64,000 nucleotides of DNA from a virus: positions 62,001 to 126,000 of IMG/VR virus record IMGVR_UViG_3300037485_001282; one strand, written 5' to 3'. The notes below the pieces were generated by a model, which was not told where the DNA came from, made no database searches, and worked only from the letters and a program-made list of their open reading frames with translations. The translations under genes were made by a program, and so were the position numbers. Shown piece by piece: positions 760 through 62,117 of the stretch; positions within the stretch are counted from its first letter, which is position 1, and each line of letters begins with the position of its first letter.

Positions 760-1472
760 AGTAACGCAACACCCATATTGACTACTTTATCTCTGTTTTC
801 TGTGTTCCATTCTTCAAAGTCCCATTTGGGTGTCTTTATATCATTAAAGAAACGACGAACTTCCCTAAGTCTATAATCCCAAATATCATCTAAGATAATT
901 AAAGTATTTTTATTAGAAACTAATTTAGAATAGTTCCAATCAAATCCAACCCCATCGTAACTATGGTCGCCGTCAATATAGATCATGTCATAGCCTTTAA
1001 GTGGCTTTATTGACTGAAGATATTTAGAGTTCTTTTCAAAAATTTGCTCGTTAGTTAATTCTAGGAAACCACTGTCTTTAGTTTCTTGATCGGTTTCTTT
1101 CCAATCATCATAGATTGTCTTATGTGGCATCCAAATGTGCTTAGAAACTCTTTTGGACTTGGGAAAATTGTTTTGAATCCCATCGTATCCACCTTGTTTA
1201 ATGTCGAATGAATCAACGTGACCTATTGGAGAATCCTCACCGTATATTTCATCCAGACTAAATCCCATTTGATCTGAAGTTCCAAAATGCCACGATCCAA
1301 TTTCTAAAATATTTTCAGGTTTCAACATTCTAATAAGTGTCTTTACGCCACTTCTAGTATTAATTGAACACCCACCGAATTTTTCATGAATTAAAGTATT
1401 TGGGTACTCAACATCTGGGCGATGCTGAAAGTTACTTTTAAAATTATCTTTAATAAAATCTATTAAGCTCAT
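756..1472 (-). CDS. Class I SAM-dependent methyltransferase
   Basis: A Rossmann-type methyltransferase of 238 aa. Motif I is NILEIGSWHFGTSD (about residues 53-66). The acidic motif DMIYIDGDHSYDG (about 161-173) is the form seen in the Methyltransf_24-type family, where the aspartates and histidine often bind a metal, and ILDDIWD follows. Such enzymes commonly O-methylate sugars in polysaccharide clusters. It sits between a glycosyltransferase-like gene and a nucleotide-sugar enzyme with 4-nt overlaps, so a sugar substrate is the likeliest reading. The exact acceptor is unknown. Confidence 0.75.
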   Translation of the reverse strand: MSLIDFIKDNFKSNFQHRPDVEYPNTLIHEKFGGCSINTRSGVKTLIRMLKPENILEIGSWHFGTSDQMGFSLDEIYGEDSPIGHVDSFDIKQGGYDGIQNNFPKSKRVSKHIWMPHKTIYDDWKETDQETKDSGFLELTNEQIFEKNSKYLQSIKPLKGYDMIYIDGDHSYDGVGFDWNYSKLVSNKNTLIILDDIWDYRLREVRRFFNDIKTPKWDFEEWNTENRDKVVNMGVALL

Positions 1473-2842
1473 AAAGTTCCTTTAAAGTTACTCAAAAAGT
1501 AATTAAGATCCTCTGGAGTTCCTAGACCCCATACCTTTTCGACATCAAAGATCTTTATTTTCTTAGATTCCTGAATTGCCTCATTATAAACTGGGGCAAC
1601 GTAGAATTCATTATTAACTCTAATGTTCTTAGCGATCATATTTTCGGCGTATCTAACATAATCATTTCCTTTAGCCCAATAATAGATACCAACAGTTGCT
1701 CTATCAGAAATTACGATCTTTTCAGCCAATTCAGTGACATAATTTTCTTCATCGACTTTAACGTAACTCCATTTTGGCGAAGTATTTTTAAAAGTTAATA
1801 TGCTACCATCGCATTTTCCTGTAGTGATCGAATACATAAACTCCGAACTACTCCATTCCATAAATTGGTCACAGTTGGCGATTAATAGTGGCTCATCTGT
1901 ATTGATAACATCTTTTGCTAGAAGAGTAGTACATGCTGCGCCTTCTGTAAGTTTATCTACACATATAATATTACAGTTTGGGGTGATGACGTTTAACATA
2001 CTCTTAAGATTGAACTTCTGAAAATCTTCGGTTCTTACTAGGTAAGTAAATTTTGCTTCTATATTTAAATTCTCAGTAACTACTTGTATCATAGGTTTAC
2101 CGTGAACTTCAATAAGTGGCTTGGGGAACGTATATCCTGCTTTTGAGAATCTACTTCCAGCGCCTGCCATTGGGATTAAAATATTCATTTTTGTTCCTTT
2201 CCATTTCTGTTTTATTGGATTTTTGAGTTTAATTATTGAAGAGTAAATATTTTCCATATTTACTTCGCTTGGGTTCTTAACAATTACTACATTTGCCCCA
2301 GATGCTTGCGCTGCTGTTATTCCAACATGCGAATCTTCGACTATTAGAGTTTCGAATGGACTAAGTGAGCAACTAAGCATAGCCTTAATATACATGGAGG
2401 GATTGGGCTTAGGGTGCTTTACGTCTTCGTTTGAGATATAATCATCTACCCACTCCATAAGCCCTAGATGAAGTAAAAACATCTTAATTGTTTGCTTTAT
2501 TGAATTAGAGCAAACCATTATCTTAATACCATCTTCTTTAAGTTTCTTAAATAGTTCTATAATTCTAACATTAGGGACTACTGAAGTTTTAATAGCATCA
2601 AATGTCTTTTGTTGCTTTAATTTCCATATTTTTTCATGAAGTTCCTTTGGCAACCCTCGTTCAGCGGTAAGTAACTCTAGTTTCTTATTAGTAGGCAATC
2701 CATCAAATTTCTTGTGGTGATCGTCTAGACTAATAACATATTTAATATCAATTTCAGCAAGAGCTAAGTTCAGTGCCAAATAATGGGTTTCTTTGGATTC
2801 TACCAAAACTCCATCTAAATCAAAACATACTAACTTGATCAT
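1469..2842 (-). CDS. Fused HAD-family phosphatase and sugar-1-phosphate nucleotidyltransferase
   Basis: Two enzymes in one 457-aa chain. Residues 1 to about 215 are a HAD hydrolase of the beta-phosphoglucomutase type: catalytic FDLDGV (D8, D10), VCSNS, KHPKPNP and IVEDSHVG. From residue 219 there is a nucleotidyltransferase with MNILIPMAGAGSRF and FPKPLIEVHGKPM, the signature of sugar-1-phosphate NTP transferases. The ATG for residue 219 (at 2188) is preceded by AAAGGAACAAAA, this phage's usual ribosome site, so a free transferase may also be made. Phosphatase plus nucleotidyltransferase are two steps of a nucleotide-sugar pathway such as that of NDP-heptose; the kinase step may be the gene at 4181-5266. 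Confidence 0.8.
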   Translation of the reverse strand: MIKLVCFDLDGVLVESKETHYLALNLALAEIDIKYVISLDDHHKKFDGLPTNKKLELLTAERGLPKELHEKIWKLKQQKTFDAIKTSVVPNVRIIELFKKLKEDGIKIMVCSNSIKQTIKMFLLHLGLMEWVDDYISNEDVKHPKPNPSMYIKAMLSCSLSPFETLIVEDSHVGITAAQASGANVVIVKNPSEVNMENIYSSIIKLKNPIKQKWKGTKMNILIPMAGAGSRFSKAGYTFPKPLIEVHGKPMIQVVTENLNIEAKFTYLVRTEDFQKFNLKSMLNVITPNCNIICVDKLTEGAACTTLLAKDVINTDEPLLIANCDQFMEWSSSEFMYSITTGKCDGSILTFKNTSPKWSYVKVDEENYVTELAEKIVISDRATVGIYYWAKGNDYVRYAENMIAKNIRVNNEFYVAPVYNEAIQESKKIKIFDVEKVWGLGTPEDLNYFLSNFKGTL

Positions 2843-16094: not shown

Positions 16095-16102
16095 TATAAA
16101 TA
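16095..16102 (+). promoter_or_regulatory. T4-type late promoter TATAAATA upstream of the tRNA leader
   Basis: An exact TATAAATA. A transcript from here would start near 16108 and carry about 32 nt before the leader-peptide ATG, so the leader and tRNA operon could be read late as well as from the adjacent sigma70-like promoter. Confidence 0.6.
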
Positions 16103-16105
16103 ATA

Positions 16106-16133
16106 TTGACTTTTTTCAAAAACAGGATATAAT
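16106..16133 (+). promoter_or_regulatory. Sigma70-like promoter of the tRNA leader
   Basis: TTGACT (16106-16111) and TATAAT (16128-16133) with a 16-bp spacer. The start point should fall at about 16136-16141, so the leader-peptide AUG would sit at or within a few bases of the 5' end of the RNA, giving a nearly leaderless message. Confidence 0.75.
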
Positions 16134-16140
16134 AGAAAAC

Positions 16141-16209
16141 ATGAACCAAGTACTATCATTATCATCGTCCAGTTATCTCAGTTCCTATCTCGGAACGGGG
16201 CGAGGGTAA
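16141..16209 (+). CDS. Leader peptide of 22 residues made almost entirely of Leu, Ser and Tyr
   Basis: A short ORF that I propose is a regulatory leader peptide. Residues 5-17 read LSLSSSSYLSSYL, thirteen in a row from only three amino acids. Those are exactly the three amino acids carried by the six tRNAs encoded just downstream. Codons 5-17 are CTA TCA TTA TCA TCG TCC, then AGT TAT CTC AGT TCC TAT CTC. Every anticodon of the cluster has a matching codon: CTA for UAG, TCA for UGA, TCG for CGA, TCC for GGA, AGT for GCU, TAT for GUA. Four different Ser codons occur side by side at 8-11. The stop (16207-16209) lies inside the antiterminator region. No strong ribosome site is seen; initiation may be leaderless. 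Role is inference from the pattern. Confidence 0.75.
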   Translation: MNQVLSLSSSSYLSSYLGTGRG

Positions 16210-16250
16210 TATTGTAGTTTTCTACAGTAAACTCCAAAGCCCCGAATCGA
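16190..16250 (+). promoter_or_regulatory. Predicted antiterminator of the tRNA operon
   Basis: 16196-16201 (CGGGGC) can pair with 16239-16244 (GCCCCG), the left arm of the terminator. The pairing extends with 16190-16193 to 16247-16250 and 16202-16204 to 16232-16234. It encloses a separate hairpin, 16210-16217 with 16222-16229 (TTTT loop). A competing upstream hairpin, GTTCC (16181-16185) with GGAAC (16192-16196), would sequester part of the left strand. This is the 1:2, 2:3, 3:4 logic of amino-acid operon attenuators: stalling on Leu/Ser/Tyr codons would favour the antiterminator. Pairings were worked out by eye. Confidence 0.65.
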
Positions 16251-16267
16251 AAGACTCGGGGCTTTTT
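16236..16267 (+). terminator. Rho-independent terminator (attenuator) before the tRNA genes
   Basis: A perfect 10-bp stem, 16236-16245 with 16256-16265 (AAAGCCCCGA and its complement), a 10-nt loop and a TTTTT run. It lies between the promoter and the first tRNA, so by default it would cut off tRNA expression. That position, not at the end of a gene, is what marks it as an attenuator. Confidence 0.85.
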
Positions 16268-16297
16268 CTTTGACAAATATATAGGTTAAAATTATAT

Positions 16298-16379
16298 GGG
16301 GATGTGGCGTAATGCAGCCGCGCAAGTCTTAGGAACTTGTACCTTCCATGGTGTGTGGATTCAAGTTCCACCATCCCCA
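16298..16379 (+). tRNA. tRNA-Leu (anticodon TAG)
   Basis: Acceptor stem GGGGATG pairs with CATCCCC. The anticodon stem CAAGT/ACTTG encloses loop CTTAGGA, with anticodon TAG at 16330-16332. There is a long variable arm (about 15 nt, ACC/GGT stem), and T-arm GTGGA/TCCAC with loop TTCAAGT. CCA is not encoded. The D-loop lacks the usual GG pair (TAATGCA). It would read CTA and by wobble other CTN codons. A class II tRNA. Confidence 0.88.
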
Positions 16380-16383
16380 CTAC

Positions 16384-16465
16384 GAGTATGTCCCATAGCG
16401 GCAATTGGGAGGCGCTGTAAACGCCTTGGATTTATCCTTCGAAGGTTCGATTCCTTCCATACTCA
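16384..16465 (+). tRNA. tRNA-Tyr (anticodon GTA)
   Basis: Acceptor GAGTATG/CATACTC, D-stem CCCA/TGGG, anticodon stem AGGCG/CGCCT with loop CTGTAAA and anticodon GTA at 16417-16419. It has a long variable arm of about 14 nt, and T-arm GAAGG/CCTTC with loop TTCGATT. Bacterial tRNA-Tyr is class II, and this one is. Only 4 nt separate it from tRNA-Leu, so the two must be processed from one transcript. Confidence 0.93.
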
Positions 16466-16470
16466 TTTTT

Positions 16471-16554
16471 GGATCGTTAAATCATCGGGGATGATCTTTG
16501 CTTGGAAAGCAAATGGAGGATAAAAACCTTGAGTTTCGACTACTCAGCGATCCG
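16471..16554 (+). tRNA. tRNA-Ser (anticodon GGA)
   Basis: Acceptor GGATCGT/GCGATCC (one T-G pair) with discriminator G, as in serine tRNAs. Anticodon stem TTTGC/GCAAA, loop TTGGAAA, anticodon GGA at 16504-16506. Long variable arm, T-arm TGAGT/ACTCA with loop TTCGACT. Reads TCC and TCT. Confidence 0.92.
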
Positions 16555-16560
16555 TTATCT

Positions 16561-16641
16561 GGAAAACAAAGCAGTCAGGGATTGCCGTCGCCTCGAAAGC
16601 GAATGGACCTTCGGGTTGCGTTTCGAGTACGCTGTTTTCCG
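16561..16641 (+). tRNA. tRNA-Ser (anticodon CGA)
   Basis: Acceptor GGAAAAC/GTTTTCC with discriminator G. Anticodon loop CTCGAAA with anticodon CGA at 16594-16596; the outer anticodon-stem pair is a mismatch. Variable arm with GGACC-TTCG-GGTT hairpin; T-loop TTCGAGT. Reads TCG, a rare codon in this AT-rich genome, which makes its presence notable. Confidence 0.9.
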
Positions 16642-16644
16642 TTT

Positions 16645-16728
16645 GGAATATCAACTCTACAAGGTAGAGCCTTCTTTGCTAAAGAAGTGGTGCCTAATAA
16701 GCATTTGGGGCAGTACCAAGATATTCCG
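16645..16728 (+). tRNA. tRNA-Ser (anticodon GCT), with an atypical T-loop
   Basis: Acceptor GGAATAT/ATATTCC with discriminator G, D-stem CTCT/AGAG, anticodon stem CTTCT/AGAAG with loop TTGCTAA and anticodon GCT at 16678-16680. Long variable arm. The T-stem TTTGG/CCAAG forms, but the T-loop is GGCAGTA rather than TTCRANY, so the universal T54-T55 are missing. Either it is functional with an altered elbow or it is decaying. Reads AGC and AGT. Confidence 0.83.
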
Positions 16729-16733
16729 TATTT

Positions 16734-16820
16734 GGCAAGTTAACCAGTCAGGCGATTGGCGCTGTTTTGAAAGCAGAGGGTTCCCGAATAGGGAATGGGT
16801 TTCGATTACTCAGCTTGCCG
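16734..16820 (+). tRNA. tRNA-Ser (anticodon TGA)
   Basis: Acceptor GGCAAGT/GCTTGCC (one T-G pair) with discriminator G. D-stem CCA/TGG; anticodon loop TTTGAAA with anticodon TGA at 16768-16770. Variable arm built on TTCCC/GGGAA; T-arm TGGGT/ACTCA with loop TTCGATT. Reads TCA. With the other three it completes a full set of serine decoders. It ends 6 nt before the convergent polymerase gene. Confidence 0.9.
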
Positions 16821-16826
16821 TTATTT

Positions 16827-17816
16827 TTAACCCCAATTAAAATGGGCTTCTATTTCACTTTCATTTAACTTAGGAACTTCCCAGTTAAGTAAGTTAAAGA
16901 ACTTTGAGAGTGGATTAAAGAAGGCTTTTTCGAATTGATGTTCTCTATCGACATATTCTTCAATATTCAATTCATTAATCCACTTTTCTTTATATGAGAT
17001 TACGTTACTATTCCAGTCTCTACCTGTTTTGGTGTGGATAAGTTTAATCTTATCGCCTTCATATATCAAATCATATTTAGTTCTTAAATCCTCGTTCTCT
17101 AATAGAACATCATTATAGAGAATACTTCCTCTAATGTGAATAGGGGTTCTGTGGAACTTTCCTTTCTCATTGAAACTATCTAGGTACTTTTTAAGATTAT
17201 TTGCTGTACTTGGAAAGGCAATATCGTCAATATCAGCAACTAAAAATTTGCTTCTAACATCTTTTAATTTACTTATAATCAACTCTCTATTAGTAGTTTT
17301 AAGCATCTCAAACAAGCAGTCTTTCATATGCTTCTTAGCTAATTTAGGAGTTGAGGATCTTACGAGTTCAATTCCAGTTGCTTTAAGTTTATCGACAGCC
17401 ATCTTAGATTCACCATCATAAACTACCCACATTATATACTTCTTTTTCTCTAGGAAAAAGGATCTTCTAGAAACTTTTTCAACTTTAAAGGAAATCTTAT
17501 TTTCCTTGCAGTTATAGCGACTTAAAGATAACGCATCCATCGAACGGTTAATAATATTCGATACAAAGGGAACTATTTCGTCGTTAATAAATTTAATGAC
17601 TGGTTCTATTTTTTCTGGGTCGGTATTATTCCGATCAGGTATATGAAGAGAATCCAGGATTTTACCTATATCGACATAAAGCGAATTATGTACTAAGATA
17701 CCATTAGCGAAAAAGGTATTTGGTGCGTCTTCCATACCTATGTCATAAACTTCTTGTTCGACTGTCCCGTCCGAAACAAGTTCGATTGATTCTATTTCAT
17801 CTATATAATAATTCAT
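16827..17816 (-). CDS. 43: DNA polymerase gp43, C-terminal half, preceded by intein C-part
   Basis: The second piece of a fractured family B polymerase. From the ATG at 17816 (GAGGAA just upstream), the first 44 residues are the C-terminal part of a split intein: VYDIGMEDAPNTFFANGILVHN, blocks F and G with the terminal His-Asn. Splicing would join the N-extein at Ser (SLYVDIGKIL), rebuilding the catalytic motif YADTDSLYVD. The remaining 285 residues are the palm and thumb (KKKYIMWVVYDG), ending near AHFNWG. An earlier start four residues upstream is possible. Confidence 0.93.
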   Translation of the reverse strand: MNYYIDEIESIELVSDGTVEQEVYDIGMEDAPNTFFANGILVHNSLYVDIGKILDSLHIPDRNNTDPEKIEPVIKFINDEIVPFVSNIINRSMDALSLSRYNCKENKISFKVEKVSRRSFFLEKKKYIMWVVYDGESKMAVDKLKATGIELVRSSTPKLAKKHMKDCLFEMLKTTNRELIISKLKDVRSKFLVADIDDIAFPSTANNLKKYLDSFNEKGKFHRTPIHIRGSILYNDVLLENEDLRTKYDLIYEGDKIKLIHTKTGRDWNSNVISYKEKWINELNIEEYVDREHQFEKAFFNPLSKFFNLLNWEVPKLNESEIEAHFNWG

Positions 17817-17817
17817 T

Positions 17818-19467
17818 TTATTCCTCATTCCAAATAAATTTTATGTGTCCGCAGTCCCATACTCTTCTATAGTTATTATTAATCATATTAGAAAATTCTG
17901 TTAACGTTTCATCATAAATTGGTAATATTTTTTTTAAATTCTCTTTATAACATTTAAATCTACTTACATATATTTCTTCATCTTTAACATAAAAATAGTT
18001 TGGAGAAGATAACCCACTATGTTTAAATCCAATATTTTCAAAATTTTTGCCATCAGATAATCTAAAATCGCACACAAATAGAACCTCTCTTGGGGTGAAT
18101 TTTTCTTTAAAATAATCAAACAATATTTTTTCGCTTTTGAAAATGCTTATGTTATTTAAATTACAATATCTTGTTATCTCCCACTGGTGTTTGGTGTTTG
18201 AGCAAATACCCATTACTGATATTATCGCGTTGTTATAAAATAACCCAATTTTTATTTTTGATAATTTTACTCCATTTAAATTATTATGGGTACAAAAATT
18301 ATTAAATTCTTTATCTGAAATTTCTTTAACTACACATTCGCTCGCGTCTATAATGTTGCTGATTTTATTTAATTTATTCTTTATTATCGATTTCCAAATC
18401 TCCCTCTTCACAACATTTTTCCACTCAAATTCGAACATATGCAATAATTCTATATTTTTTTCTTTACATAATATTGTTTTATTTGCATGATAATTTTTCT
18501 CTTTTTCAGTTTCTTCTTTATTGAACGAATGCCAATAATTACCATTGAATTCAATAGCCAGATTTTTATTTGGAACAAAAATATCAATTTCTTTCGGGGG
18601 TATAATATATCGCACATTTTCTACTATCGATTCATCGAGTTCCTTGATAAAATCACATACCTCTTTTTCTTGATGTGATCTAATTTGGCTGCAATATGGA
18701 CAACCATAGCCAGATTTATGATCATTTGGCGTTTGCCAAAATGACCCATGCTCTTTACATTTTATTTCTACTTTTTCTTTAGCTGATCGGTAAACGACAA
18801 AACTATAATCATAAAGATCGCCATGTGATTTTTTAAAATCAACTATAGTTTCTTCTTGTGTTTTAAATGATCTTATGCTATTAAATTCGTTAGCGCATTT
18901 AGGGCAGCCATGTCCTAATAAGTGAATAGATGGTAATTGAAAGAATACACCGTGCTTTTTGCAGTGTATTTCTAATTTTTTGTCTTCCGTAAAGTTATTT
19001 ACGTAAGAATATAAGTTATTGTGTTTTTTATTAAGTAACTCATCCCATTTCTCGAACGAATAACTCAGCGCCTTACTAATGTTTTCTCTTTTGCATATTG
19101 GACAACCTATTCCCCTAAAATGAGGAGCAGGGGCTTGCCAAAAAGAGCCATGCTTTTTACATATTATTTCTACTTTTTCCGAACAAGATACATATTTTAC
19201 TTTTGAGTAGTCATATTTGTATTTGTGTTTTTCGTTAGATTTTTCTATAAACATTTCGTTGGTGAATGTTCTTTTAAGGGCATATGATTCTCTTCTACAA
19301 ATTGGGCACCCTAGGGTTCTACTAATATCTGCGTTTCTTTTTTTAAATTTTATACTGTGTTTATTACAAAACAGTTCTATTATTTTCTTGTCGTGGTCTA
19401 AAATTTTAATTACACTCACATGCGGCAAATGTTTTTCCACTCTAATTTTTATCTGATCAATGTTCAT
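17818..19467 (-). CDS. Homing-type endonuclease (Vsr-like) lodged in the fractured polymerase
   Basis: A 549-aa protein between the two polymerase genes. Residues 1 to about 265 contain four tandem zinc-binding repeats of the form C-x2-H(G) then GCPxC (CKKHGSFWQAP, GCPICKRE and similar). A nuclease domain follows: EIDIFVPNKNLAIEFNGNYWHS (D, E and H as in Vsr-like EDxHD enzymes) and LLHMFEFEWKN. A C-terminal domain shares WEITRYC and FVCDFRLSDGKNFENIGF with the protein at 48031-49824. Such genes sit between split-intein halves in environmental T4-like phages and probably mobilise the insertion. It has its own late promoter and AAGGA ribosome site. Confidence 0.88.
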   Translation of the reverse strand: MNIDQIKIRVEKHLPHVSVIKILDHDKKIIELFCNKHSIKFKKRNADISRTLGCPICRRESYALKRTFTNEMFIEKSNEKHKYKYDYSKVKYVSCSEKVEIICKKHGSFWQAPAPHFRGIGCPICKRENISKALSYSFEKWDELLNKKHNNLYSYVNNFTEDKKLEIHCKKHGVFFQLPSIHLLGHGCPKCANEFNSIRSFKTQEETIVDFKKSHGDLYDYSFVVYRSAKEKVEIKCKEHGSFWQTPNDHKSGYGCPYCSQIRSHQEKEVCDFIKELDESIVENVRYIIPPKEIDIFVPNKNLAIEFNGNYWHSFNKEETEKEKNYHANKTILCKEKNIELLHMFEFEWKNVVKREIWKSIIKNKLNKISNIIDASECVVKEISDKEFNNFCTHNNLNGVKLSKIKIGLFYNNAIISVMGICSNTKHQWEITRYCNLNNISIFKSEKILFDYFKEKFTPREVLFVCDFRLSDGKNFENIGFKHSGLSSPNYFYVKDEEIYVSRFKCYKENLKKILPIYDETLTEFSNMINNNYRRVWDCGHIKFIWNEE

Positions 19468-19485
19468 AAGGTATATCCTTAATCA

Positions 19486-19493
19486 TATTTATA
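19486..19493 (-). promoter_or_regulatory. Late promoter TATAAATA for the nested endonuclease
   Basis: TATAAATA on the minus strand in the 39-nt gap between the polymerase N-part and the endonuclease. It is one of only two minus-strand copies noticed, and is placed so that the endonuclease is made late, independent of early polymerase mRNA. Confidence 0.65.
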
Positions 19494-19506
19494 TAAATTT
19501 TAACAT

Positions 19507-21642
19507 TTATATGACTATAATTTTATCTCCAATTTTTAGGTTATGTGATTCTTTGTTTACCATGTTACTATTGGCGTCAATAGTAATTAACGGATGATCA
19601 GATGTAACTGTAATTGTTTTTCCTGATTTCGTTTTTATCTTATATAATTTCTTTTTTGTCAGATGCTTTTCTATATATTTGACTTTGCCAGAAATTACAT
19701 TTGATATGGTCGAATCAAACATAGGTAAAAGTAAGTTATTAGGGAAAACGAATTCTCTTCCATCATAATTTTTCTTGAAATTGATTGGTTCTTCTGTTTT
19801 TAATTCGGAAAAAATATCTTCTATTGCTATGTTTCTATTTTTACCTAAGTCATTGATAACCATGGACTTAGCCACGGAATCGGTATCTGCGTATATACAA
19901 ACATCATTAACGTTAATTGCGTTGTGTCTTTTCGCTAATTCCGTATCTTTAAATTTAGTTAAAAAATAGTTCTGAACCGTATCATTTACTGTTTTCGTTA
20001 TAGATTGTCCAGTTAAAGTCACCGCCATAGCATTATCTAGGTCATAAAATCTTGAATAAGGTGTCGATAAAAACCCATAAACAGAGTTCAAAAGCAGTTT
20101 GTAGTTGATTTGACGAGCATCGTGGGCGCTATATTCTGCTTTATTATTGTTTCTTTCTGCTTCTAACATTAACTCTTTATAATATTTTCTTTTATCAAAC
20201 CATTCAGAAATAAACGAAGGAACAATACCTTTAACATCTTGGCGATAGATAGCCCCATTGCCAGCCAAGCAGAAATTCTTTGCTTTAATTAACTTTGCTA
20301 GTTCCCTTATAGAAGTTTCTATGCCACTAAAAGTTACTAAATAGTCATCTATATCTTTACCAGCGATTAACTTACGTAAATCTGGAACATATTGACCATC
20401 GACTCTTCCTATTTTAGTTTCTGGGCTAATGTTCCAACCCATCATAATAGAAGGATACAATGAAGTAGCATCGAAAGATACCGTCCATTCATGTAGTCCC
20501 TTTATAGGATCTTTAACGTAACCACCTGGAAACTTTTTAGGTTCTATGTCTCGTTTCACATCTGGAAGAACAATATTTTTCTTTGATAGTTCCGATAAGA
20601 AGGCACCATCAAGGACTCTAACAGTTTTCTGATAGAACTCGAAAGGAACTCGGCAACCATAGCAGAAACTGAAGAGAATATTTAGGAACTTCTTTTTTGC
20701 TTCTAGTTTCTTTAGGAGTCTAACGTCATGGACATTATACTCTACATATTTCTGCCAGTCGTTATTATAGAGATCAACTAGAGTTCCTGTGTATTCTAGT
20801 TTACGTTCCCCTAGTTCCTCTTCAGCAATAGAATCTAATTTCCAGCTTGGTCTAGCGGAAAAGGTATATGTTTTAAATACTTCTAACATATCAATACAAG
20901 AGATGCCAGCAATTGAATAAGTTTTCTTAATTTTTCCATTTTTCAAAGTAGTTTCTATTTCTTTAACTACTCCAATGGGACTTAAGTCACTTGCAGCGTC
21001 TTCGTGGAAGATTTTGTTAATTCTATTTACTATGTAGGGAATATCGAAAAAGTTACTATTCCAGCCACTAAGGAAATCTGGGTGACTGTTTCTAACAAAG
21101 GTCATGAATTGGTTTAGTAATTCATTTTCATTTGATATGATAGTTTTTTCGTATTTCTCGTTTGCTTCATCTAGGAAACTTGTATTAAAGTCTCTTTCAG
21201 CAAATATAAAGTATTTTTGCTGTTTAGTTGACCAAACAGTAATAATAGTTATTGGGAAGTTAGCATCTTCTGGTTTAGGGAATCCTTTTTCAGAATGCAC
21301 CTCAATATCCAATAACCATATATCGAAGTCAGGAATGGTTAGTTCCTGACCTAGATAGTGGCTAACTATAAACTTAGTTTCTAGTGGAATGTCTGATTCA
21401 AACAGTTCCATTCCACTTGCTTTAAGTCTTTCGATTTTCTTTTTATATGCGTAGATGGTATCTGTTTCTATTTTTCTTGCTGGATCACCGAAAATAGTTT
21501 TATATTCTGGATTCTTTAAGAGTTTATCTTTCAAGAAAAAGAATAGAGGAGCGGGAAGACGCTTATGAACTTTATGTCCATCTTCATATTCCCACAGATT
21601 TATTTCTGACTTTCGGTAATCAACAAAAATATTAGAATACAT
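19507..21642 (-). CDS. 43: DNA polymerase gp43, N-terminal half, fused to intein N-part
   Basis: First piece of the family B replicative polymerase. Residues 1-588 carry the 3'-5' exonuclease (LLDIEVHSEKG with D112 and E114; WNSNFFDIPYIV; YNVHDVRLLKKLE), motif A (SFDATSLYPSIM) and motif B (INYKLLLNSVYGF), stopping inside motif C at YADTD. Residues 589-711 are the split-intein N-part: Ser1 as nucleophile, block B at VTSDHPLIT (TxxH), and a tail LKIGDKIIVI. Trans-splicing with 16827-17816 would give about 873 residues, near T4 gp43. Confidence 0.94.
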   Translation of the reverse strand: MYSNIFVDYRKSEINLWEYEDGHKVHKRLPAPLFFFLKDKLLKNPEYKTIFGDPARKIETDTIYAYKKKIERLKASGMELFESDIPLETKFIVSHYLGQELTIPDFDIWLLDIEVHSEKGFPKPEDANFPITIITVWSTKQQKYFIFAERDFNTSFLDEANEKYEKTIISNENELLNQFMTFVRNSHPDFLSGWNSNFFDIPYIVNRINKIFHEDAASDLSPIGVVKEIETTLKNGKIKKTYSIAGISCIDMLEVFKTYTFSARPSWKLDSIAEEELGERKLEYTGTLVDLYNNDWQKYVEYNVHDVRLLKKLEAKKKFLNILFSFCYGCRVPFEFYQKTVRVLDGAFLSELSKKNIVLPDVKRDIEPKKFPGGYVKDPIKGLHEWTVSFDATSLYPSIMMGWNISPETKIGRVDGQYVPDLRKLIAGKDIDDYLVTFSGIETSIRELAKLIKAKNFCLAGNGAIYRQDVKGIVPSFISEWFDKRKYYKELMLEAERNNNKAEYSAHDARQINYKLLLNSVYGFLSTPYSRFYDLDNAMAVTLTGQSITKTVNDTVQNYFLTKFKDTELAKRHNAINVNDVCIYADTDSVAKSMVINDLGKNRNIAIEDIFSELKTEEPINFKKNYDGREFVFPNNLLLPMFDSTISNVISGKVKYIEKHLTKKKLYKIKTKSGKTITVTSDHPLITIDANSNMVNKESHNLKIGDKIIVI

Positions 21643-60986: not shown

Positions 60987-62117
60987 ATGAACCTGACCAT
61001 TAAATGTAAACTATTAGCTAACCAAGAACAACATCAGCAATTGCGGGACGTAATGATAGCATTTAATAATGCTTGTAACTGGGTTAGTGAAGTTTGTTTT
61101 AATAAAAAGATTTTTAATAAGTTCGGACTACATAAAGAAGTTTATTACGAAACAAGACAGCGTTTTAATCTTTCTAGTCAGATGGTTATTCGAGTAATAG
61201 GCAAAGTAGCGGATAGTTATAAAGATTTTAAAAAGCGAGAAACCCAGCACGAATTTAAAGATTTAGGGGCAATCGATTACGACGAAAGAAATTTCGGAGT
61301 CAAAAAAGATGGAATTTCTATTTCTATCTTAGGTGGAAGAACAATAATGGATTATCGTTCAAGAAAACCTCTCTCAGAATACAAAATTTGTAGCCAGTGC
61401 AAACTATCCTATGATAAGCCAAAGAACAAGTTTTATGTTTTGTTGTCGGTTGAAGAGATGGAACCAGTTCCAGATAAAGTTGAAAATTTTATTGGTGTTG
61501 ATATGGGAATTGTTAAGTTGGCAACTTGTTCTGATGGAGAAATTTTTACTGGTGAAGCAGTTGAGAATCATAGAGTTAAACTAACATTATTAAAGACGAA
61601 ATTGCAGAGTAAGGGAAGTAAGTCAGCGAAACGGCATTTAAAAAAGATTTCGAGAAAAGAAGGAAGGTTTAAGAGAGATGTAAATCATTGTATTAGCAAG
61701 AAGATAGTAAAGAAAGCAAAGGCACTTGGCGTCGGGGTAAAGATCGAAGATCTTTCTTTTGACAACAAAGAACCAGTTATGAAGTTTAACCAGAAACAGC
61801 GTGATAATAACGCTAAGATGGGTAAATGGGCTTTCGGTCAATTGACCAACTATCTTGGGTATAAGGGGAAAAGAGCAGGAGTTCCTGTTTTGTTTGTTAA
61901 TCCCGCTTATACTTCGCAAAAATGCAGCAAGTGTGGACATACTGAAGAAGATAACCGTCTGTCCCAATCTGAATTCTGTTGTATATCCTGTGGATACAAA
62001 GAAAACGCAGATATTAATGCTGCAATTAATATTTCTCGGGCTGCCGTCAACCAGCCTATTGTAGCCACTAGAAAAAGTGCGTTACAAGCCCCGCTATTAA
62101 TTGGTGTGGGTAGTTGA
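60987..62117 (+). CDS. tnpB: Solitary TnpB (IS200/IS605-type RNA-guided nuclease)
   Basis: A 376-aa TnpB. RuvC residues are present: D172 (IGVDMGIVKLA), E254 (VKIEDLSF), D342 (ENADINAAIN). The zinc ribbon has C313, C316, C332 and C335 (CSKCGHTEED, CISCGY); another CSQC lies at 135-138. No tnpA transposase is nearby. It interrupts the tail operon between the second tube gene and the gp26 gene. TnpB proteins of this family use an RNA transcribed from the 3' end of their gene to cut target DNA; here the gene end forms a hairpin with GTTGAC. Activity is inferred from intact residues. Confidence 0.93.
   Translation: MNLTIKCKLLANQEQHQQLRDVMIAFNNACNWVSEVCFNKKIFNKFGLHKEVYYETRQRFNLSSQMVIRVIGKVADSYKDFKKRETQHEFKDLGAIDYDERNFGVKKDGISISILGGRTIMDYRSRKPLSEYKICSQCKLSYDKPKNKFYVLLSVEEMEPVPDKVENFIGVDMGIVKLATCSDGEIFTGEAVENHRVKLTLLKTKLQSKGSKSAKRHLKKISRKEGRFKRDVNHCISKKIVKKAKALGVGVKIEDLSFDNKEPVMKFNQKQRDNNAKMGKWAFGQLTNYLGYKGKRAGVPVLFVNPAYTSQKCSKCGHTEEDNRLSQSEFCCISCGYKENADINAAINISRAAVNQPIVATRKSALQAPLLIGVGS

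Follow-up and report, generated by a model that had tools for sequence, protein, structure and literature searches.

A probable ribosome-mediated attenuator with leader codons matched to its own tRNA genes in a T4-like phage and in unrelated phages

We analyzed a 64,000-nucleotide (nt) stretch of viral DNA (hereafter the window), which comprises positions 62001-126000 of the 143,701-base IMG/VR record IMGVR_UViG_3300037485_001282 and belongs to a T4-like phage with a G+C content of 33%. A short open reading frame (ORF) ahead of six transfer RNA (tRNA) genes in the window is very probably the leader of a ribosome-mediated transcription attenuator of the tRNA operon, and an example of a general phage device in which the leader codons correspond to the tRNAs encoded in the same operon. 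In the sequence, this reading is based on the covariation of leaders with tRNA sets, the geometry of the loci, mutually exclusive RNA structures and the promoter-to-ATG spacing; we infer that the leader is translated and that transcription terminates and is released from termination, as well as what triggers the switch. Why phages carry tRNA genes and how these genes are controlled has been asked for decades, and the usual picture is constitutive expression or expression set by promoter strength. A switch read by the ribosome would mean that phages measure the tRNA supply and respond on demand.

The elements of the window locus are as follows (leucine, serine and tyrosine are abbreviated Leu, Ser and Tyr).

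16095-16102 (+), T4-type late promoter box TATAAATA, read from the sequence; the motif recurs 5' of many genes of this phage
16106-16133 (+), sigma70-type promoter TTGACT-16-TATAAT, score 11/12; the -10 box ends 7 nt before the leader ATG
16141-16209 (+), leader ORF MNQVLSLSSSSYLSSYLGTGRG of 22 codons, read from the sequence (ATG at 16141, TAA at 16207-16209)
16153-16191 (+), sensor of 13 consecutive Leu/Ser/Tyr codons (residues 5-17)
16158-16210 (+), protector stem (region 1:2) enclosing an inner hairpin; 12 base pairs join 16158-16170 to 16198-16210, from folding
16196-16201 (+), region 2 core CGGGGC, which forms the antiterminator with GCCCCG at 16239-16244, from folding
16210-16229 (+), small hairpin inside the antiterminator loop, from folding
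16237-16267 (+), intrinsic terminator of about -18 kcal/mol with a U-run, from folding
16262-16275 (+), 14-mer CTTTTTCTTTGACA, identical in G014 operon 2, G016 and G017 operon 1 and near-identical in other loci
16298-16380 (+), tRNA-Leu (UAG), ARAGORN
16384-16465 (+), tRNA-Tyr (GUA), ARAGORN
16470-16555 (+), tRNA-Ser (GGA), ARAGORN
16560-16642 (+), tRNA-Ser (CGA), ARAGORN
16645-16728 (+), tRNA-Ser (GCU)-like gene with the atypical T-loop GGCAGUA, missed by ARAGORN
16734-16820 (+), tRNA-Ser (UGA), ARAGORN

The leader lies between the promoter and the intrinsic terminator, an arrangement repeated at other loci, and its codons 5-17 read CTA TCA TTA TCA TCG TCC AGT TAT CTC AGT TCC TAT CTC. An earlier sequence-only reading of this DNA had named a good promoter, six class II tRNAs and a run of Leu, Ser and Tyr beyond chance, and all of these held up. 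The 13-residue run is the longest of its kind across the six frames of the entire 143.7-kilobase genome, and the maximum in 20 genomes simulated with a second-order Markov model did not exceed 11. A long variable arm is found in 6/6 tRNAs, which makes the cluster wholly class II. ARAGORN called five of them; the sixth, Ser-GCU, has perfect acceptor and anticodon stems and went uncalled because of its unusual T-loop. The same reading had found a codon for each of the six anticodons. All six tRNAs do have a readable codon in the leader, but this coverage on its own is modest evidence (P 0.13 by the loose and 0.03 by the strict count). Together with some low-complexity bias in a single window, it is what could be said for chance, i.e., an ordinary terminator before tRNA genes and a meaningless short ORF in a pyrimidine-rich stretch.

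Covariation between leader codons and tRNA sets had been set beforehand as the test of the attenuator, and it was borne out. Comparison loci were found via tRNA or terminator patterns and never via leader composition. A scan of IMG/VR for consecutive Ser anticodon loops yielded locus L323, and a second scan for a U-run, TTGACA and a T-loop, with leader information not used, yielded further loci; the tRNA regions of these genomes were retrieved for within-genome comparison. All 11 independent leaders (from 6 phage genomes) ranked their own cluster first, and the observed diagonal fit was reached by 0/300,000 permutations of the 11 leader/cluster pairs. A readable codon was present in the operon's own leader for 104 of the 111 distinct anticodons (counted per cluster). 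Isoacceptor matches numbered 54 vs. 45.8 under synonymous randomization (P 0.0025, for nine leaders including the related G014/G015 pairs). The arrangement recurs with different, matching codons in unrelated phages and among the operons of a single genome, which makes chance hardly credible as an explanation.

In L323, which belongs to phage G014 (G015 is a relative), the leader MRRHSIHTISISTSSSDQAGLLVTQN consists solely of His, Ser, Ile and Thr at residues 4-16 and precedes four Ser, one His, two Thr and two Ile tRNA genes; it is followed by a terminator and then by the same CTTTTTCTTTGACA as in the window. The other operon of G014 has the leader RGNMDNFVNWFGFNRAADKDGG and tRNAs for Phe, Leu, Gly, Asp, Trp, Ala, Lys, Asn, Val, Met and Arg. 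Leader MNRVMSLSCFSYWASSLLAEIRGRA of G017 operon 1 accompanies Leu, Tyr, Ser, Phe, Ala, Cys and Trp tRNAs, and the 47-residue leader of G017 operon 2 serves amino acids mostly outside those of operon 1 (the automatic detector scored this operon poorly, as the cluster was cut at a gap, and its complete tRNA set was read from the neighbouring stretch). G016 pairs MRFTQPTQITGGNSIQGWTDRGCMV with Ile, Gly, Thr, Ser, Asn and Gln tRNAs, and G018 pairs MNYTVSNITSTRLGILRLIGTSPTQDPV with Thr, Gly, Ser, Leu, Arg, Met and Ile tRNAs.

Leaders that complement each other within a single genome were thus seen in G014 and G017, and also in G023, whose four tRNA operons each have a different, matching leader of their own: IITNINITIVAGGDDT with Met, Ala, Asn, Ile, Gly, Val, Thr and Asp tRNAs; KKWFCF with Phe, Trp, Cys and Lys tRNAs; QQRHPR with Pro, His, Arg and Gln tRNAs; and, in operon 4, SSLSSLLYLS with Leu, Leu, Tyr, Ser and Ser tRNAs. 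The diagonal of this 4x4 comparison ranked 1 of 24. Operon 4 is a second class II-only operon with a leader of Leu, Ser and Tyr, in a phage unrelated to that of the window; its first tRNA, misfolded as Gln by ARAGORN, was read as Leu-UAG from the anticodon arm. The G023 promoters appear Bacteroidetes-like. In nine loci, the stop codon lies 48-58 nt from the U-run, and near the end of every one of these ORFs is a complement of the terminator 5' arm; the four operons of G023 give 51-57 nt. Overall, most stop-to-terminator distances fall within 48-60 nt.

Cultured phages carry the same arrangement. Caulobacter phage CcrBL10 has two leader-preceded tRNA operons. Its gp078 (MFALSHLSLSTKAASPASLSLALLATATKPSTKPTTSASHSTETL) has 42 of 44 residues within the set of its own operon, Pro/Thr/Lys/Leu/His/Ala/Ser (P 1e-11), and none of the 44 among the Val/Ile/Gln/Arg of the next operon; its stop-to-terminator distance is larger, about 92 nt. 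The second leader, MSKSYRQFVQIQVVRNFRAGRSRMDDGGTFI, stands before Tyr, Phe, Val, Ile, Gln and Arg tRNAs. Homologues were found in phiCbK, BL57, CcrSC and Brevundimonas phage Kikimora, all four of which conserve the operon C leader. The Kikimora leader (MMTYRQNVQNIRVVRFYRAGRSCMCDGLVGG) has two Asn codons and its operon has an Asn tRNA, which the phiCbK operon lacks; the phiCbK leader nevertheless has one Asn. In Erythrobacter phage XM05, MFTQTALHLLTQTPLYCQWQYSCSSL precedes Ser, Tyr, Leu, Thr, His, Gln, Cys and Trp tRNAs. The phiCbK GenBank record (JX100813) annotates Rho-independent terminators in the tRNA region, the same terminators as considered here, and does not annotate the operon C leader ORF or link the terminators to a leader peptide or attenuation.

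Peptide conservation within the phiCbK group, and the annotation of gp078 (CcrBL10) and gp083 (phiCbK) as hypothetical proteins, would agree with an ORF that encodes a functional small protein whose matching composition is incidental. Between groups, however, the peptides share little beyond the composition of their own tRNA sets, and the conserved residues are the cognate ones, so that we regard a small protein as most improbable.

The RNA structures computed for the window fit the attenuator. The sequence-only reading had proposed a strong terminator with a mutually exclusive antiterminator, and both folding and the joint switch statistic upheld it. The antiterminator excludes the terminator and depends on the position of the ribosome: simulated stalls at codons 5-15 left the antiterminator (CGGGGC/GCCCCG) standing, and a ribosome at codons 16 to stop abolished it. 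The Leu/Ser/Tyr run stops at roughly this switch point. The joint statistic scored the antiterminator as free at stalls on codons 8-12 and lost at the stop codon, with the partner strand protected in the untranslated RNA; none of 400 dinucleotide shuffles equalled it, whereas codon permutations did so in 1% and random phage segments in 0.25% of cases. Antiterminator pairing on its own was matched by 3-14% of controls and is weak evidence, a further point that chance can claim. The protector stem forms first (0.96 at 16215), and equilibrium later favours the antiterminator. Computed antiterminators were also present, and weaker than that of the window, in some relatives.

A T-box covariance model (RF00230) gave no match in the window, and the Rfam leaders stayed under their gathering thresholds (Phe_leader 26.4 bits vs. 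55, His_leader 20 vs. 49, Thr_leader 18.2 vs. 55). These Phe, His and Thr leader matches, and one to Rfam Yfr10, were set aside as sub-threshold and terminator-driven. A tRNA remnant, a T-box, and an ordinary gene terminator with a chance ORF were also weighed as identities and rejected.

The leader mRNA is probably leaderless. The spacing between the end of the -10 box and the leader ATG is 6-7 nt in 9/9 loci with a recognizable sigma70-type promoter (the window, G016, G017 operon 1, XM05, and operon C of CcrBL10, phiCbK, CcrSC, Kikimora and BL57, the last five being related), and transcription would therefore start at, or within 1-2 bases of, the A of the AUG. Most genes of the phage to which the window belongs do carry a Shine-Dalgarno-like sequence. 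In C. crescentus, 375 mRNAs are leaderless and are translated as efficiently as others (PMC4117421).

In the mechanism that we propose, RNA polymerase would start at or beside the leader ATG, and a ribosome would initiate on the probably leaderless 5' end and follow closely. With ample charged Leu, Ser and Tyr tRNAs, the ribosome would reach the stop codon and cover CGGGGC (16196-16201); the terminator would form and the tRNA genes would stay off. If any of these tRNAs were scarce or uncharged, the ribosome would stall at codons 5-15 and open the protector stem, CGGGGC would pair with the terminator 5' arm to give the antiterminator, and the tRNAs would be made. New tRNAs would then relieve the stall, i.e., negative feedback.

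The signal for such a switch could be the amino-acid supply (charging) during infection instead of the loss of tRNA molecules. Classic attenuators respond to charging, and a stalled ribosome is blind to the difference between an uncharged and a missing tRNA. Yet tRNA genes as output cannot cure amino-acid starvation, and isoacceptor matching above synonymous chance is needless for a pure amino-acid sensor; we consider that signal unlikely. As a trigger, loss of tRNA accounts better than starvation for an output that consists of tRNA and for the matching of isoacceptors.

The sequence-only reading had gone further and aimed the circuit at a defence that attacks class II tRNAs. Its leader attenuator matched to the tRNAs is strongly supported by the covariation, but the class II aim does not follow from it, since sister operons sense His/Ser/Ile/Thr, Phe/Trp/Cys/Lys or Pro/His/Arg/Gln. 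A dedicated counter-defence sensor for nucleases that attack class II tRNAs would account for the operons of class II tRNAs alone in the window and in G023 operon 4, and for the gathering of all class II tRNAs of G017 in one operon; Schlafens are known to cleave type II tRNAs (PMC13245857). Sister operons of the same design sense other sets, however, and the class II tRNAs of G014 are split over both of its operons, so that a sensor dedicated to this class is doubtful. Shortage of class II tRNAs during infection is plausible in view of the tRNA-Tyr cases in T5 and T6, where the phage tRNA-Tyr replaces host tRNAs lost to retron-Eco7 (T5) or Septu (T6) (PMC11555353; PMC13096335). We suggest tentatively, as a possibility below even chances, that in phages from several host groups each operon groups tRNAs that tend to be lost together and is switched on, through its leaderless leader, by the absence of exactly those tRNAs; the class II-only operons would then point to a nuclease that attacks tRNAs with a long variable arm as a class.

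The tRNAs might instead be made chiefly from a promoter 3' of the terminator, which would render the leader irrelevant. A perfect -35 hexamer, TTGACA (16270-16275), directly adjoins the window terminator, and the motif is common to other loci. The best -10 box (TATATG), however, overlaps the start of tRNA-Leu, so that this tRNA would be truncated, and the motif in G014 operon 2 lies too few bases before the tRNA to be a promoter; we find this source very unlikely. CTTTTTCTTTGACA was seen 3' of the terminator in unrelated phages with a G+C content of 33-62% (the window, L323, L434 and L473), a near-identical form, CTTTTTCTTTGAGA, in L498 operon 2, and in some loci the 14-mer is too near the tRNA to serve as a promoter. 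Many contigs (L387-L475) repeat an order in which a terminator and U-run are followed by ATTGACA and one tRNA (Arg-GCG, Ala-UGC, Arg-UCU or Met), and a tRNA promoter may here lie immediately 3' of the terminator of the upstream gene; the 3' end of Rfam Yfr10 (UUUUUUauUGacauuA) resembles it.

Several observations weigh against the leader attenuator. At equilibrium, the untranslated window leader prefers the antiterminator before the 3' arm is made, and the off state therefore needs kinetic trapping by the protector stem. The antiterminator duplex of G014 operon 2 is weak (P 0.10), the terminator-arm complements of G023 operons 2 and 4 are short, and the simulated fall of the antiterminator at the stop codon is incomplete or absent in G015 operon 2, G016 and G017 operon 2. 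XM05 (L507, 154-260) has a matching leader and a leaderless-type promoter, but no U-run follows its hairpin, and termination at this site may depend on Rho or not occur. The leader ORFs were picked by their position near a terminator, a mild selection, and the window cluster includes the atypical tRNA-Ser (GCU). The closest relatives sampled, chosen by DNA polymerase (49-74% identical) and UvsX, had no tRNA cluster in the stretches examined, and so no locus in which to compare the window leader itself. The device is also missing from many tRNA-rich phages: no such leader was seen in the stretch read of T5-like beppo, Vibrio Chester, PA5oct, immuto, POP12, Ochrobactrum OC, J2-1, FENT2 and Lak-A2.

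Other searches added no loci. A tblastn search of a related leader against phages gave no match. Exact matches to a leader 14-mer (GGAACGGGGCGAGG) were taken as chance, as were those to the Ser anticodon-loop triple GGA-CGA-GCT; L267, matched by two Ser-triple patterns, does not hold these tRNAs. Nor was such a leader seen in the stretch read of the tRNA-rich G022/L502 and the L443 group, whose ORF resembles a membrane protein.

The closest known systems are the attenuators of the trp, his, leu, ilv and thr operons of Enterobacteria, with the same promoter, leader ORF of cognate codons, and protector, antiterminator and terminator, and with ribosome position deciding the outcome. The phage leaders differ in their location, in an output of tRNA genes and not biosynthesis genes, in sensing up to 14 amino acids per leader, in isoacceptor matching, in a probably leaderless start and in reaching no Rfam leader family at threshold. 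In the pheST attenuator of the E. coli PheRS operon, a leader peptide regulates part of the translation machinery that handles the leader's own amino acid; that likeness stands beside a synthetase output, a single amino acid and a chromosomal location. T-box riboswitches also sense tRNA charging and control transcription termination, but they read the tRNA by direct RNA pairing without translation. For the T5 and T6 tRNA-Tyr cases, in which phage tRNA arrays counter tRNA-cleaving defences, the papers report expression from strong promoters or gene amplification and not leader-ribosome control (PMC11555353; PMC13096335).

The author of the sequence-only reading knew of no phage precedent, and our full-text literature search likewise turned up no account of phage tRNA genes controlled by a leader peptide, with most preprints and subscription papers outside its reach. 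Undescribed in the literature searched are the phage tRNA output, the many amino acids per leader, the complementary operons per genome and the probable leaderless start. Attenuation would be extended to tRNA-gene output, multi-amino-acid sensing and apparently leaderless mRNAs. If each operon does group tRNAs that are lost together, leader peptides would record the tRNAs depleted by host defences or infection. The leader codons would be a record of the shortage met by each operon, so that tRNAs under attack could be predicted from sequence. The idea is directly testable, as phiCbK of Caulobacter, a phage in standard laboratory use, has two such operons.

Some further features were noted. The tRNA-Ser (GCU)-like gene of the window could be degenerate or nuclease-resistant. 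The serine tRNA order of the window, GGA-CGA-GCU-UGA, is also found in L338 (266-613), and partial orders occur in L323 (CGA-GCU-UGA) and CcrBL10 (CGA-GGA-GCU; L512, 5213-5490), which suggests inherited Ser blocks in phage tRNA arrays. L323 encodes at 780-1520 (-) a protein that resembles, by eye only, tRNA-His guanylyltransferase (Thg1), and the genome has a tRNA-His gene. In the window, 16827-21642 (-) encodes a DNA polymerase B that an apparent split intein divides in two: polN (19507-21642) closes with the intein N-part, polC (16827-17828) opens with the intein C-part (..ILVHN|S), and an ORF for a Hef-like homing endonuclease (17818-19467) lies between them. A large ORF with very long Ser-rich low-complexity stretches lies in the same phage outside the window (G000, 138191-140434; L042). 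A transposase ORF (PHROG 506) is found at 60987-62117 (+) of the window in this T4-like phage; with TATAAT 6 nt before its ATG, it is possibly another leaderless start.

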